Assembly: GCA_003644275.1 (NCBI GenBank)
Contig: QNBY01000003.1
Location: 1-17,063, forward strand
Direction of reading: 5' to 3'
DNA: 17,063 bases
DNA from: Planctomycetota bacterium
GTDB taxonomy: Bacteria; Planctomycetota; B143-G9
Shown piece by piece: positions 4,876 through 16,993 of the stretch. How positions within the stretch are numbered: the stretch's first letter is position 1; each line of letters begins with the position of its first letter. The position numbers and the translations under genes are program-made. Below the pieces are notes generated by a model, which saw only the letters and a list, made by a program, of their open reading frames with translations, searched no databases and was not told the DNA's origin.

Positions 4876-5099
4876 TCGAGAAGGTCGGCGGGCGCTTCAT
4901 GCTCGTCGCGCTCCTGCAGAAGCGGGTACGCGAGCTGCAGAAGGGGGCGAGGCCCCTCGTGGTCCCCGAGAAGGGGGCGGGCTTCAAGGAGATAGCCCTG
5001 CAGGAGATATGGGAAGGGAAAGTGGAGTTCGTCCCGTTCGAGCCGCAGAAGGAAGAGCGGTTCGACATCGAGGAGGACCTCTTTGAGCTCCCCGAATGA
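4848..5099 (+). CDS. rpoZ: RNA polymerase omega subunit
   Basis: An 83-residue omega subunit that clamps the beta-prime C-terminus and helps assemble RNA polymerase. The conserved core is GGRFMLVALLQKRVRELQKG (14-33), followed by ARPLVVP and an IALQEI helix (51-56). The tail is acidic (FDIEEDLFELPE). Length is within the family range. The ATG at 4848 is chosen because the product begins a few residues before the conserved TEELIEKVGGRF segment; the nearest purine-rich site is GGAGGT at 4831-4836, rather far, with AGAGG at 4841-4845 very close. It follows gmk in the common gmk-rpoZ-coaBC order, overlaps gmk by 28 bases and contains the ribosome-binding site and start of coaC within its last 30 bases. 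Confidence 0.94.
   Translation: MAEYKTEELIEKVGGRFMLVALLQKRVRELQKGARPLVVPEKGAGFKEIALQEIWEGKVEFVPFEPQKEERFDIEEDLFELPE
5071..5085 (+). promoter_or_regulatory. Ribosome-binding site and TTG start of coaC inside rpoZ
   Basis: AGGAGG at 5071-5076 lies 6 bases before a TTG at 5083, inside the 3' end of rpoZ. No ATG precedes the first conserved CoaC strand, so this strong site decides the start of coaC in favour of TTG. Confidence 0.75.
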
Positions 5100-5670
5100 G
5101 GCCGACCGGCCGCTCGCCTGCAAGGTGGTCTGCCTGGGCGTCACCGGCGGCATAGCCGCCTACAAGGCGGCGGAGCTCTGCTCCATGCTCGTGAAGCGGG
5201 GGGCGGAGGTCCACGTCCTGATGACCGCCGCCGCCCGGCGTTTCGTGGGGGAGCTCACCTTCGAGACGCTGTCCCACAACCCGGTGATCACGGAGCTGTT
5301 CTCCCGCTCCGCCGAGTACGATCCCGAGCACGTCGCGCTCGCCCGCAGGGCGTCCGCGGCGGTGGTGGCGCCGGCCACCGCGAACATACTCGCCAAGATG
5401 GCCTGCGGCATAGCGGACGACGCCTTGAGCACGGCGCTGCTCACCTTCGACTGCCCGTGCTTCGTAGCGCCCGCCATGAACAGCAGGATGTGGAAGCATC
5501 CCGCCACCGTCGAGAACGTGCGCAGGCTGAAGGAGCGGGGAGTCGTCTTCATCGGCCCCGCGGAAGGCCCGCTCGCCTGCCGCGACGAGGAAGGCCCCGG
5601 CAGGATGGCCGAGCCCGCCGAGATAGTGGAGAGGCTCGAGGAGTTCTTCCGCGCCGGGAAACGGTCCTGA
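5083..5670 (+). CDS. coaC: Phosphopantothenoylcysteine decarboxylase (stand-alone CoaC)
   Basis: A 195-residue flavoprotein of the HFCD family that decarboxylates 4'-phosphopantothenoylcysteine to 4'-phosphopantetheine in coenzyme A synthesis. VVCLGVTGGIAAYKAAEL (15-32) begins the FMN-binding fold. The active-site histidine is His83 in EHVALARRA; VVAPATANILAKMACGIADD follows at 94-113, with the PAMN motif at 130-133. The substrate-clamp cysteine is Cys166 in GPLACRDEEGPGRM. In most bacteria CoaC is the N-terminal half of a CoaBC fusion of about 400 residues; here it ends at a TGA and CoaB follows as a separate frame one base later. Start is TTG at 5083, with a 17-base overlap of rpoZ. Confidence 0.92.
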   Translation: MSSPNEADRPLACKVVCLGVTGGIAAYKAAELCSMLVKRGAEVHVLMTAAARRFVGELTFETLSHNPVITELFSRSAEYDPEHVALARRASAAVVAPATANILAKMACGIADDALSTALLTFDCPCFVAPAMNSRMWKHPATVENVRRLKERGVVFIGPAEGPLACRDEEGPGRMAEPAEIVERLEEFFRAGKRS

Positions 5671-5671
5671 G

Positions 5672-6301
5672 ATGAGAATCGTAGTCACCGCGGGCCCCAC
5701 CATCGAACCGATAGACGCCGTCCGGTTCATAAGCAACTTCTCGAGCGGGCGCACCGGCTACGCCGTGGCCGCGGCGGCCGCGGGGCGGGGGCACGAGGTG
5801 ACGCTGATAAGCGGCCCCGTCCGCCTGCATCCGCCCGCCGGGGTGAGGGCCGTCGAGGTGGCCGCCACCGCCGAGATGGAGCGGGCGCTGAGGGAGGAGT
5901 TCCCCGCCGCGGACGCGCTGGTGATGGCCGCCGCGGTGTGCGACTACCGCCCCCGCCGCGTCTTCGAAGGGAAGCTGGACCGCTCGCCCGCCGGGCTCAC
6001 GCTTGAGCTGGAGCCCACGCCGGACATACTCGCCGAGCTGGCCGCGGAGAAGGGCGGCCGGGTGGTGATGGGCTTCGCGCTGGAGGCCGAGGACGGCATC
6101 GCCGCCGCCCTGCGCAAGTGCAGGGAGAAGAACTGCGACGTGGTGGCCCTCAATCCTCCGGCCTCGCTGAACGGCGGGGACACCGAGATAACCCTCGTCT
6201 ATCCCGACGGAAGGGTGAAGCCGCTTCCGCTGCTGCCGAAGGAGGCCGCCGCGGAGCTCATCGTCGCGGAGCTGGAGCGGCTGGCGCGCGGTCGGGGCTG
6301 A
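5672..6301 (+). CDS. coaB: Phosphopantothenate--cysteine ligase (stand-alone CoaB)
   Basis: A 209-residue ligase that joins cysteine to 4'-phosphopantothenate by a nucleotide-activated route in coenzyme A synthesis. The nucleotide-binding start VTAGPTIEPIDAVRFISNFS (5-24) is canonical and includes Asn22, and AAAVCDYRP (86-94) is the second signature. The lysine-bearing loop here is FEGKLDRS (98-105): one Lys is kept where many CoaB have a KIKK run. TPDILAEL and VVMGFALEAED follow. CoaC plus CoaB total 404 residues, about the length of one fused CoaBC. The ATG lies one base after the coaC stop (TGAGATG) with no strong ribosome-binding site, so it probably depends on coaC translation. A one-base shift separates the frames. 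Confidence 0.92.
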   Translation: MRIVVTAGPTIEPIDAVRFISNFSSGRTGYAVAAAAAGRGHEVTLISGPVRLHPPAGVRAVEVAATAEMERALREEFPAADALVMAAAVCDYRPRRVFEGKLDRSPAGLTLELEPTPDILAELAAEKGGRVVMGFALEAEDGIAAALRKCREKNCDVVALNPPASLNGGDTEITLVYPDGRVKPLPLLPKEAAAELIVAELERLARGRG

Positions 6302-12258: not shown

Positions 12259-12287
12259 GAAAGGCCCGCTCCGCGGGCCTTTTTCTT
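12259..12287 (+). terminator. Rho-independent terminator after the TPR-like gene
   Basis: The 8-bp stem AGGCCCGC (12262-12269) and GCGGGCCT (12273-12280) with a TCC loop, followed by TTTTCTTT. The A residues before and T residues after can extend the stem. It separates the envelope pair from the fusion gene downstream. Confidence 0.92.
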
Positions 12288-12301: not shown

Positions 12302-12329
12302 TTGACCGGTCCTGAACACGGCGTAAAAT
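12302..12329 (+). promoter_or_regulatory. Sigma-70-type promoter for the SHMT-GcvT fusion and rocD
   Basis: TTGACC (12302-12307), a 16-base spacer and TAAAAT (12324-12329), each 5 of 6 matches to consensus. A leader of about 15 bases contains AAGGAGG (12341-12347), 4 bases before the ATG at 12352. The stretch between terminator and start codon is too short for a glycine or tetrahydrofolate riboswitch, so control by those is not apparent. Confidence 0.78.
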
Positions 12330-12351
12330 CGTCCCATTCCAAGGAGGAACG

Positions 12352-15300
12352 ATGGCGAAACGGAACACCTTCTTCTTCGGCGGCGACCTCTCCGAGCTCG
12401 ATCCCGTGGTGCACGGCTTCATCGAGGCGCTCGCCGTCCGAAGGGCGCAGGAGCTTTTCGCCACCGACCGCTTCCCCGGCCATCCCAACCCGACCTCGCC
12501 GGAGGAGATATTCGTAAACGTGCAGCCCCTGTCCGGCGCGGCGGCCAACAACGCCGTTTACAACGCCTTCGTGGACCCGGGCGACACCGTGATGGGGCTC
12601 GCGCTGCCGCACGGCGGCCACCTCACCCACGGCTCGGAGTTCAACCGCTCCGGCAAGACGTTCCACATAGTGCCCTACGAGATAAATCCCCGCACGGGCC
12701 GGATAGACTACGACGCGCTGCTCCAGCGCGCCCGCGAGTGCAAGCCCAAGATGATAATAGCGGGGGCGAGCGCCTACCCGTGGGAGATGGACTTCGTGCG
12801 CTTTCGCGAGATAGCGGACGAGGTGGGCGCGATACTGCTCGCCGACGTGGCGCATCCCGCGGGCCTGATGGTGACGGGGCTGCTCCAGAGCCCGGTCGGC
12901 CTCGCGGACGTGGTGACCACCACCACGCACAAGACGCTCTGCGGCCCGCGCGGCGCGATCATCGTCACCACCAACCCCGTGCTCGCCGAGAAGGTGGACA
13001 TGGCCGTATTCCCCGGCGAGCAGGGCGGCCCGCACATAAACCAGATAGCGGCGAAGGCGGTTTCCTTCCTGCTCGACGCCACGCCCGACTTCGCGAAGCT
13101 GATGAGGCTCGTGAGGGACAACTGCTCCGCGCTGGCCGAGCGCCTTGTGGAGAACGGCCTCACCCTGGCCTACGGCGGCACCGAGAACCACCTCGTGCTG
13201 GTGGACCTGCGGAAGATAAAGACGCCCACCGGCTACCCCCTCACCGGCGAGATGGCGAGCCGCATCCTCGACCTCATCGGCCTCACCTGCAACAAGAACA
13301 CCATCGCGGGCGACACCAACGCCGCCCACCCCGGCGCGATAAGGCTCGGCACCACCTGGATAACCCAGCGCGGCCTGAAGCCCAAGCACATGAAGAGGCT
13401 GGCGGAGATAATCGCCGTCACCCTGAAGAACATCCACACCTTCAGGTACATCGAGGCGCGCGACTACGTGGGCAGGGGCAAGATAGACTTCGGCCTGTTC
13501 GAGGAGATGAAGCGGGAGGTGGAGCTGCTCGAAAGGGAGGCCGTCCGCGAGATGGAGATAGAGCGCGAGAGCGGCTACCCGTACTTCCAGAGGATGGAGA
13601 TCGACGAGGACCGCTACGACGCCGCCCGCGGCGTCTTCCACATCCGCGGCCACGAGCTGGTGGAGCACTACGGCGATCCCGATTCCGAGATAGCCTCCGC
13701 CCGCGAGGGCGTGGCGCTGGTGGACACGCCCCAGCACGGCGTCTTCCACGTCCACAGCGGCAGGGTGAAGGCGGCGTTGCAGGAGATATTCACCGGCGAC
13801 GTGCTCTCGCTGCAGCCCTGGTGCGCCATGCGGTCCTTCATGCTCGACGCCGACGGCAAGGTGATAGACGACTGCGAGATAATCCGGCTCGACTCCGAGG
13901 GCGACGAGGACCACTACCTCGTCGTGTCGCGGGGCTCGCGCGCAGAGAGGGTGAAGAGCTGGCTGCGGGCGCTCTCCGACTGCTACGTGATCACCGACCG
14001 CGAGGACGTCTTCGCCAAGGTGGAAGGCCCCTTCATCGTGGACGATCTGGGCGAGCCCGGCAACGGCTCCTACTCGTCCTTCAACCTGTTCGGGGGCAAG
14101 GCGGTGGAGCTTCTGAGCAAGTTCGACCCCAAATGGAAGGCCCTCCAGCCCGGCGCCGCCGTGAGGAACGCCGAGGACGTCATCGTGATGAACATGCCCT
14201 TCGGCGACGAATCGAGGCTCGTGGTGATAGCGCCCGAGGACAAGCTGAACGCCATGCGCGAGAGGCTCATCTCGGTGGGCGCGCTCCGCTGCGGCGCGGG
14301 CGTGATGGCGCACGTGCGCAAGGAAGCCGGGCTGCCCGTCTATCTCAAGGAAGGCGAGGACTTCAAGGGCTCCGACTACGTGGAGAGGCACCCGGAGATG
14401 TTCGCGCTCACCAAGTGCAACTACGTGGGATGGCGCAGCCTGCCGAAGCCGCCCGCTCCCGAGAACGCGACGCGGTTCGAGTGGAAGGAGCCCGAGGGCG
14501 AGCCGCGCAAGTCCTGTCTGTACGACGAGCACGTGAAGCTCGGGGCGAAGATGGTCCCCTTCGCTGGATGGCTCATGCCGGTGTGGTACACCTCGACGGC
14601 GGAGGAGCACCGGGCCTGCCGCGAGGCCGCCGCGCTGTTCGACGTCTCCCACATGGGCGTGCTGGACTTCATAGGCGATAACGCCATACGCTTCCTCGAC
14701 CAGGTGACGACGAACTACGTGCACTGGCTGCGCGACGGCCAGGGGCACTATTCCTACCTGCTCGGGCCGGACGGCGTGCCGCTCGACGACATACTGCTCT
14801 ACCGCGTGAACCGCAACCACTTCATGATGGTGGTGAACGCGGCGAACGCGGAGAAGGACGAGGAATGGCTGCGCGGGCTGAACGACGGGCGCTACCTCAT
14901 AGATTACGAGCATCCGTTCAAGCGGCTCGAGGCCCGCGTCACCATACGCAACCTGAAGGACGTGGGCGAGTCGGGCGAGGACTCCCGGGTGGACCTGGCC
15001 CTGCAGGGACGCCGCGCGCTGGACGTGCTGCTGGAGCTCGCCGAGGGGCTGGAGTTCCGCAAGGCGATATACCGCCTGAAGCGGTTCTGCATAGCCCGCG
15101 GGAAGCTCGCGGGGCTGGACGCCATAGTGGCCCGCACCGGCTACACCGGCGAGGACATCGGCTACGAGATATACGTGCATCCGGACAACGCCCCCGCGCT
15201 CTGGAACGCCATACTGTCCGCCGGTGAGAAGTGGGGAGTGAAGCCCGCCGGGCTCGGCGCGAGGGACTCGCTCCGCACGGAGGCCGGGCTGCCCCTCTAC

Positions 15301-15771
15301 GGGCACGAGCTGGCGGGGCCGCTGAACGTCATGCCCATCGAGGCGGGCTACGGGTTCGTGGTGCGCTTCCACAAGCCGTGGTTCATCGGGCGCGAGGCCA
15401 TGATGCGCAACGAGGAGACGCGCACGATGGAGCTCGTCCGGTTCAGGGCCGCGAGCAAGGGGACGAGGATGCTCTCGCTGGGCGATCCGGTGTGCGACCA
15501 GCGCGGGCAGGTCATCGGCCGGGTGACCTCGAGCGTGGCGGTGGACGGCGTACAGTACGGGATCGCCTACGTGCGCTCGAAGTCGGCGAAGGAAGGGCTG
15601 AGGATACTGTGCTATCCCGTCTCCGGCGCCAGGAGTTCCGGCAAGCCGCCCGCCGAGCTCGAACCCGGCGACCGCACGGTGATTCCGGTGGAATGCGTCA
15701 TACTGCCTCGCTTCCTCCGCAAGGAGGAGGAATACCCCGTAATAGTGGACTGGAGCAAGTACGCCGACTGA
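12352..15771 (+). CDS. Fusion: truncated SHMT, degenerate GcvT-like region, GcvT
   Basis: A 1139-residue protein in three parts. Residues 1-410 are SHMT-like (PLP, fold type I): HGGHLTHG with His90, ADVAHPAG with Asp165 and His168, PLP Lys194 in [22 protein letters not shown] and substrate Arg331 in IRLGT. The N-terminus jumps from [19 protein letters not shown] to [11 protein letters not shown], so the segment that in E. coli GlyA holds Ser35, Tyr55, Glu57 and Tyr65 is missing. Residues about 420-697 resemble a worn GcvT copy ([39 protein letters not shown]). Residues 719-1139 look like intact aminomethyltransferase: [37 protein letters not shown] and [16 protein letters not shown]. Expected roles are glycine/serine and tetrahydrofolate one-carbon transfer; with the missing segment, SHMT activity is doubtful. 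The start has its own promoter and AAGGAGG. No GcvH or GcvP gene is in the window. Confidence 0.9.
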
Positions 15772-15784
15772 CACGGAGTCGAGA

Positions 15785-16993
15785 ATGGCAGACACGAAGG
15801 AGCTCATCGAGAAATCCGAGAAGTTCGGGGCGCACAACTACCATCCCCTTCCCATCGTCATCTCTCGCGCCGAGAGGGTATGGGTGTGGGATCCCGAGGG
15901 CAGGAAGTACCTCGACATGCTGGCGTCCTATTCGGCGCTGAACCAGGGGCACCGCCACCCGAAGATAATCGCCGCGCTCGTGGAGCAGGCGGGCAGGGTG
16001 ACGCTCACCTCGCGCGCCTTCCACAACGACCGCATCGGGCCGTTCATGGAGAAGCTCGCGAAGCTCGCCGGCAAGGACAAGGTGCTTCTGATGAACAGCG
16101 GGGCCGAGGCCGTCGAGACCGCCCTCAAGGCCGCCAGGAAGTGGGGCTACAAGATAAAGGGCGTGCCCGAAGGCAAGGCCGAGATAGTGTGCTTCCGCAA
16201 CAACTTCCACGGCCGCACCATCACCATAGTGGGCTTCTCGTCCGAGGAGCAGTACCGCGACGGCTTCGGGCCGTTCACGCCCGGCTTCCGTCTGGTGGAC
16301 TACGGCGACGCCGAGGCCCTCGAGGCCGCGGTGAACGAGAACACCGTGGCCTTGCTCATCGAGCCCATCCAGGGCGAAGGTGGCATACTCATCCCGCCGG
16401 AGGGCTACCTGCGCCGCGTTGAGGAGATCTGCCGCAAGAACGATGTGCTGTTCATCGCCGACGAGATACAGACGGGCTTCGGCCGCACCGGCAAGCTCTT
16501 CGCCTGCGAGCACGAGGGCGTGACGCCCGACGTGTACGTGGTGGGCAAGGCCCTCGGCGGCGGCGTCTTCCCCGTCTCCGGCATAATAGCGGACGATGAG
16601 ATAATGCAGGTCTTCACCCCCGGCGACCACGGCTCCACCTTCGGCGGCAACCCGCTCGGCTGCGCCGTGGGAGAGGCCGCGATAGACGTGCTGCTGGAGG
16701 AGAATCTAGCGGAGCGCTCCGCCGAGCTCGGCGGCTACTTCATCGAGAGGCTCCGCGCCATACCGAGCCCCGCCGTGAAGGAAGTGAGGGGCAAGGGACT
16801 GTTCATCGGCGTGGAGATAAAGGAGGAGTTCGGCACCGCGCGCCCCTACTGCGAGCGCCTCATGGAGCTGGGAATCCTCGCCAAGGAGACCCACCACCAG
16901 GTGATACGCTTCGCTCCCCCTCTCGTGATAGCGAAGGAGGAGATAGACTGGGCGCTGGAGCGCATAGAGAAGGTGCTCACCGAGGAGCGGTAG
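15785..16993 (+). CDS. rocD: Ornithine--oxo-acid aminotransferase
   Basis: A 402-residue class III PLP aminotransferase. It is predicted to move the delta-amino group of ornithine to 2-oxoglutarate, giving glutamate semialdehyde for arginine/ornithine breakdown or proline supply. The N-terminal [20 protein letters not shown] (15-34), [14 protein letters not shown] (48-61) and [10 protein letters not shown] (73-82) are characteristic of ornithine aminotransferase rather than acetylornithine or 4-aminobutyrate enzymes. [15 protein letters not shown] (101-115) binds the cofactor phosphate, Asp226-Glu227 in [14 protein letters not shown] contact the pyridine ring, and the Schiff-base lysine is Lys255 in [11 protein letters not shown]. 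Length is normal. The ATG at 15785 follows CGGAG. It lies 13 bases after the fusion gene and ends at a terminator, so the two are probably co-transcribed. Confidence 0.94.

Follow-up and report, generated by a model that had tools for sequence, protein, structure and literature searches.

The fusion gene and its surroundings

The window (the whole stretch of DNA that was analysed, 17,063 nucleotides) is contig C3 of G000, a MAG of 1.67 Mb in 324 contigs that is 76.91% complete. It carries a gene whose translation runs from an ATG start through 12352–15771 with zero internal stops and joins an SHMT part to two GcvT-type regions. The following features are found at the locus.

12259..12283, forward strand: intrinsic-terminator-like stem of 11 pairs, closing the upstream unit (consensus match only)
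12302..12329, forward strand: sigma-70-like promoter site, TTGACC-16-TAAAAT (consensus match only)
12341..12347, forward strand: Shine-Dalgarno sequence AAGGAGG before the ATG (read from the sequence)
12352..15771, forward strand: SHMT–degenerate GcvT–GcvT fusion gene, 1139 aa (frame, profile matches)
12409..12426, forward strand: gap of about 80 SHMT N-terminal residues (YAEG, RRYYKG region) relative to the checked relatives (junction placed from the protein alignment)
12421..13413, forward strand: SHMT core with Lys194 and Arg331 (Pfam SHMT match)
13591..14505, forward strand: middle region with a degenerate GcvT-like domain (GCV_T match at 13642–14349, 3.9e-20)
14506..15600, forward strand: full GcvT (T-protein) region (TIGR00528, 265.5 bits; cut-off 235.85)
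15785..16993, forward strand: ornithine aminotransferase-like gene, 13 nt past the fusion stop (frame, profile match)

Pfam SHMT (PF00464) covers residues 24–354 of the protein (6.3e-103, 344.9 bits, profile positions 67–399), and Pfam GCV_T matches two stretches, the best of which spans residues 723–1002 (3.9e-93). The original prediction, which placed an SHMT followed by one degenerate and one full GcvT in a single frame, is borne out by the frame, the Pfam matches, and the domain order, and it was right about the degenerate state of the middle part and about the folate one-carbon theme. The SHMT motifs that it had named, Lys194 and Arg331, hold up as well: K194 does not vary in either alignment, and R331 varies little if at all. 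Both residues presumably have catalytic roles. The promoter and ribosome-binding site that it had assigned to the gene correspond to the promoter-like site (one found versus a mean of 0.0 in 50 shuffles, by consensus matching only) and to the AAGGAGG sequence, and the terminator-like stem stands between the fusion gene and the upstream gene. At gathering thresholds, Rfam matched only three tRNAs in one compared locus (L055) when the window and seven loci were scanned, so there is no riboswitch at threshold.

None of the other compared loci has an ornithine aminotransferase-like gene next to its fusion, so this gene probably lies outside the system. Elsewhere in the window, two adjacent frames, CoaC-like (5083–5670) and CoaB-like (5672–6301), may represent a split Dfp, by reading of their translations.

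The NCBIfam scan returned no fusion-specific model; what the protein passes are the individual models for SHMT and for GcvT. A SHMT–GcvT fusion in either order was not mentioned in the literature searched, which comprised titles and abstract openings from incomplete listings. The parts and what they catalyse are known; the union of the two enzymes, how widely it occurs, and its role as the main T-protein appear undescribed in that literature.

Distribution and phylogeny

The fusion is present in 20 of the 59 Planctomycetota genomes examined, the window's own included. One of the 20 copies (G003) runs into a contig end before reaching the last GcvT, and a further fusion beyond the 20 (G028) is cut within SHMT. 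A phylum-wide draw gave matches at E <= 1e-90 in 57 of 294 genomes; two of these (G056 and G286) match in the GcvT part only, with frames of 420 and 441 aa, and in four (G003, G122, G218, and G221) the visible protein is incomplete, with a frame of 536–625 aa. Among the best 80 matches of a scan of named genomes, the fusion is carried by genomes of Chloroflexota and Planctomycetota and by one further genome whose title reads Deltaproteobacteria (Myxococcota according to the tree tool). The guess that Chloroflexi-like lineages may carry the architecture was thus correct, the window genome itself being Planctomycetota. A stop or frameshift between the parts, a concern raised in the original prediction, was checked in other genomes: the same layout in 20 of the 59 Planctomycetota genomes and in Chloroflexota rules out a frameshift artefact and argues against a chance join.

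Quick trees were built for both end domains, with SH-aLRT support only and a midpoint root. In the SHMT tree, the cores of 37 fusion rows, among them the split protein of L065, stand apart from the 24 rows of canonical GlyA (23 of them different) with a support of 100. The GcvT parts of the fusions likewise form one group (support 100). Three further sequences fall within it: the unfused GcvT of G056, the piece L077, which is truncated at its contig start, and the separate GcvT of L065; the latter two entered this tree labelled as canonical, and L065 was additionally entered as split. Five loci were left out of the fusion rows (L033, L054, L058, L068 (frameshifted), and L074), with L033, from G003, being the exact reverse complement of L058 (JACOTG010000189.1). 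The unfused G056 GcvT is a 420-aa frame that, unlike the fusion, has no SHMT; it lies in a gcvT-gcvH-gcvPA-gcvPB cluster on contig C37 and is placed outside the fusion GcvT parts with a support of 92.

The window protein belongs to this family, which is defined by three parts in one frame with both end domains in the fusion groups. A single old joining would be the simplest reading. The nearest neighbour of the window is L034 in the SHMT tree (support 90) and L056 in the GcvT tree (support 98), so the two domain trees disagree on the inner branching, and exchange between lineages may have played a part. Two long GcvT-bearing frames of 1160 and 1111 aa on contigs C23 and C51 of the L061 genome (G299) are probably two fusion copies.

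The C-terminal GcvT and the glycine cleavage system

The C-terminal part aligns to TIGR00528 over positions 2–339 of 362 and runs along the solved aminomethyltransferase structures 1yx2, 1woo, and 3a8i. These solved chains are free proteins of 364–401 aa, whereas the GcvT of the window makes up the C-terminal third of its polypeptide. The pair D812 and D813 is invariant in 17 of 17 rows in each of two alignments, and we take it to be the catalytic Asp position of the folate site.

Activity without GcvP or GcvH, as had been proposed for the fusion, is not supported. A look for both genes elsewhere in the genome of the window found gcvH, gcvPA, and gcvPB side by side on contig C64, so that the genome has the partners of a T-protein of the glycine cleavage system (GCS). 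No GcvT match besides the fusion was found in this genome; as the MAG is 77% complete, a second gcvT could be unassembled. GcvH and GcvP occur in 19 of the 20 fusion genomes, and neither was found in the remaining one (G052, 73% complete). Of 40 loci, many with short flanks, only 4 have GCS genes in the neighbourhood of the fusion; in L055 the neighbouring match is a fragment of 72 aa where the contig ends. L070 carries an intact fusion next to gcvH-gcvPA-gcvPB.

A standalone GcvT over the TIGR00528 cut-off is kept by four of the 20 fusion genomes (G003, G005, G019, and G038), compared to 32 of 37 other genomes (Fisher 1.0e-6, kinship ignored). G003 was counted as a fusion genome though its fusion is visible only through the middle domain at the contig end, and two genomes were left out of the count: G028, whose fusion is cut at a contig end, and G020, whose GcvT is part of a reverse-order fusion. 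Including G020 gives 33 of 38 for the non-fusion genomes (7.5e-7, kinship ignored). Adding G028 as a fusion genome and counting a sub-cut-off standalone GcvT that stands beside gcvH in G011 gives 2.8e-6, again with kinship ignored. The same pattern is seen in the named fusion genomes, mostly Chloroflexota, where 19 of 20 have no separate GcvT over the cut-off and only L065, with its split partner, departs from this. The T part of the fusion itself falls under the cut-off in G010, G011, G019, and G055 (209.7–231.6 bits) and in four of the 20 named genomes (210.6–229.2 bits). Taken together, the GcvT pattern and the co-occurrence with GcvH and GcvP make it most likely that the fusion is a working GCS T-protein joined to SHMT.

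The SHMT part in the family and in the window

The window copy keeps the lysine motif, Arg331, and the core of GlyA (PF00464), and the other fusion members keep the N-terminal motifs too. Where the solved SHMT used for comparison reads FPGIQGGP and RGPRGG, this SHMT reads FPGEQGGPH and CGPRGA. Nine of the 20 fusion genomes (G011, G012, G018, G019, G032, G034, G049, G052, and G057) have no other canonical GlyA above 400 bits; the one canonical GlyA match in G032 reaches 75.6 bits and contains a stop. The fused SHMT is therefore probably the SHMT of these nine cells. The genome of the window has a canonical GlyA on contig C199, which can carry the SHMT reaction there.

Compared to GlyA and to every checked relative, the window copy lacks about 80 N-terminal residues. 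Its SHMT matches the profile only from position 67, and the gap sits between LDPVVHGFI and EALAVRR. The missing stretch includes the YAEG glutamate and the RYYxG tyrosine region, for which we assume a catalytic and folate role. The [AT]EG motif is present in each of the 39 other fusion loci that could be checked, which makes the window copy the sole one without it among 40 compared, and the relatives also keep the RYY motif, with variants. This census reads L075 by eye (YTEG at the [AT]EG position) and leaves out L074 and L077 (cut before the region), L058 (the same DNA as L033), and the shorter duplicates L004–L021. A hidden upstream N-terminus was ruled out, since the stop-to-stop frame adds 12 codons only.

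Relaxed constraint on the remaining SHMT core was considered and left no sign: at 0.45, the end branch of the window copy is about as long as those of 19 other fusion rows from Planctomycetota (median 0.46), and there are 0 unique breaks at otherwise invariant columns, a weak test as the other 35 rows likewise have a median of 0. An undecayed core leaves two readings, a recent gap or an error of assembly, and these are about equally likely. An assembly or consensus error, with an intact SHMT in the living cell as in the relatives, has an even chance: it agrees with the motif being kept in every other checkable locus, with the undecayed core, and with an assembly that is fragmented and incomplete. 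However, the gap is in frame, a search of the MAG for a leftover N-terminal piece matched canonical GlyA only, and a canonical GlyA could make a genuine loss tolerable. By the same facts, a recent in-frame deletion is just as probable; it would have left a T-protein with a dead SHMT scaffold, tolerated thanks to the GlyA on C199, and the retention of the downstream GcvT as the sole T-protein found in the assembly fits such a history. Against a real deletion speak the core, which shows no sign of relaxation, and the fact that no other compared locus lacks the motif. Without these N-terminal residues and their conserved Glu and Tyr, the protein as assembled should act as T-protein only.

The middle GcvT-like domain

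The region between the end domains measures 168–341 aa in 36 fusions. Its profile matches aminomethyltransferase structures, best over residues 32–140 of 1yx2 (1.2e-16 for the whole sequence). Of the 36 extracted middle domains 35 could be aligned, L064 giving no alignment over the Asp motif. The Asp pair is kept in nine of these 35 copies, the DD of the window included, and is thus not conserved in the family. Motifs such as WLRALSDG are conserved in most of 11 aligned rows, and together with the retention of the domain across phyla this suggests a structural role; the domain may serve a structural or a folate-docking function.

Reverse-order, split, and unfused arrangements

A protein with the opposite order is encoded in G020 (contig C105, L136:128–2869). 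Its 913-aa frame begins with a single GCV_T stretch (GcvT at 43–302) and ends with an SHMT-family domain (469–869, 117.8 bits). Among the 294 genomes of the phylum, the GcvT-then-SHMT order is also found in a 911-aa frame of G070 (C18:106136–108817); G166 has GcvT and the SHMT-family protein as separate neighbouring frames of 423 and 461 aa, and most other matches of this search hit one part only. Like the window fusion, the G020 and G070 frames hold a GcvT and an SHMT-family domain, but in reverse order, and the SHMT part of G020 is closer to canonical GlyA than to the SHMT of the window (74.7 versus 41.1 bits). The reverse-order protein therefore looks like an independent fusion, and the joining of GcvT and SHMT would then have happened on two occasions. 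The frames in G020 and G070 point independently to a coupling of GcvT and SHMT. GcvP was not found in G020, which is 80% complete.

Other arrangements were also observed. A Roseilinea locus (L065:8677–11894) has SHMT and the middle region in a 637-aa frame and GcvT in a separate 404-aa frame, possibly a natural split. The gcvT-gcvH-gcvPA-gcvPB cluster at L050:4868–9430 encodes the unfused GcvT that branches closest outside the GcvT parts of the fusions. A Lachnospiraceae locus (L076:971–6866) carries an unfused glyA-gcvT-gcvH-gcvPA-gcvPB cluster.

Proposed function and alternatives

The architecture, the grouping of the end domains, the co-occurrence with GcvP and GcvH, and the missing N-terminus are observed, and they are best explained by a gene for the cell's GCS T-protein that is fused through a mostly non-catalytic GcvT-like spacer to SHMT, the window copy being a T-protein only as assembled (probability about 0.8); the enzyme activities, the coupling, and the loss of SHMT function here we infer. 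The reaction in the family would start with GcvP and GcvH handing the C-terminal GcvT an aminomethyl group bound to lipoyl, from which GcvT would form NH3 and 5,10-methylene-THF. Subsequently, the tethered SHMT would combine the methylene-THF with a second glycine to yield serine and return THF, or run in reverse. Keeping the two sites together would spare the labile methylene-THF from decay to formaldehyde, and channelling of this intermediate in the fusion is plausible. According to a study on the E. coli GCS in vitro, formaldehyde is released mainly from methylene-THF and the addition of SHMT holds its level near zero (PMC7227101). The protein of the window as assembled would take part only as T-protein, with the GlyA on C199 performing the SHMT reaction.

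A T-protein role has to be weighed against that of a folate-dependent demethylase or transferase that resembles the GcvT domains of sarcosine or dimethylglycine enzymes. Such proteins do have GcvT-fold domains fused to other enzymes, and they are seen as weaker matches, but the GcvT part of the fusion matches GcvT models far better than the sarcosine and dimethylglycine families, and in most fusion genomes with GcvP and GcvH no further GcvT exceeds the cut-off, which makes this role improbable. As an analogy, dimethylglycine oxidase/dehydrogenase may work like the fusion, by joining a carbon-donating enzyme to a THF site. Its GcvT-like domain is not a GCS T-protein, and its partner is an FAD/flavin enzyme, whereas the partner in the fusion is SHMT. 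Channelling of the intermediate to the THF site is reported for the dimethylglycine enzymes (PMC5082570).

A stronger competitor, at a little under even odds, is that the fusion of T-protein and SHMT would serve co-expression or a fixed stoichiometry only, with channelling absent. The existence of an unfused cluster with glyA beside the GCS genes agrees with this, but a middle domain that is retained across phyla with its WLRALSDG-type motifs does not. A more far-reaching version of the T-protein reading is rather doubtful as a whole. It would hold that one polypeptide acts as GCS T-protein and SHMT widely in Planctomycetota and Chloroflexota, that a retired GcvT became a folate-docking spacer in a glycine-to-serine unit which hands methylene-THF directly from site to site, that a second join in the reverse order arose in some Planctomycetota, and that the lineage of the window has just switched off its SHMT by the in-frame deletion, so that its T-protein now bears an SHMT-derived scaffold.

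Implications

Glycine, serine, and one-carbon flux depend centrally on the GCS and SHMT, as do engineered reductive glycine pathways. Where the producer of methylene-THF is naturally joined to its consumer, channelling becomes directly testable, and the fusion would be a ready-made part for limiting formaldehyde leakage. For gene calling, a genome seemingly without gcvT may hold its GcvT inside a gene named as SHMT. The fusion is apparently the sole T-protein in most of the examined genomes that have it, and the same two enzymes appear to have been joined again in reverse order.
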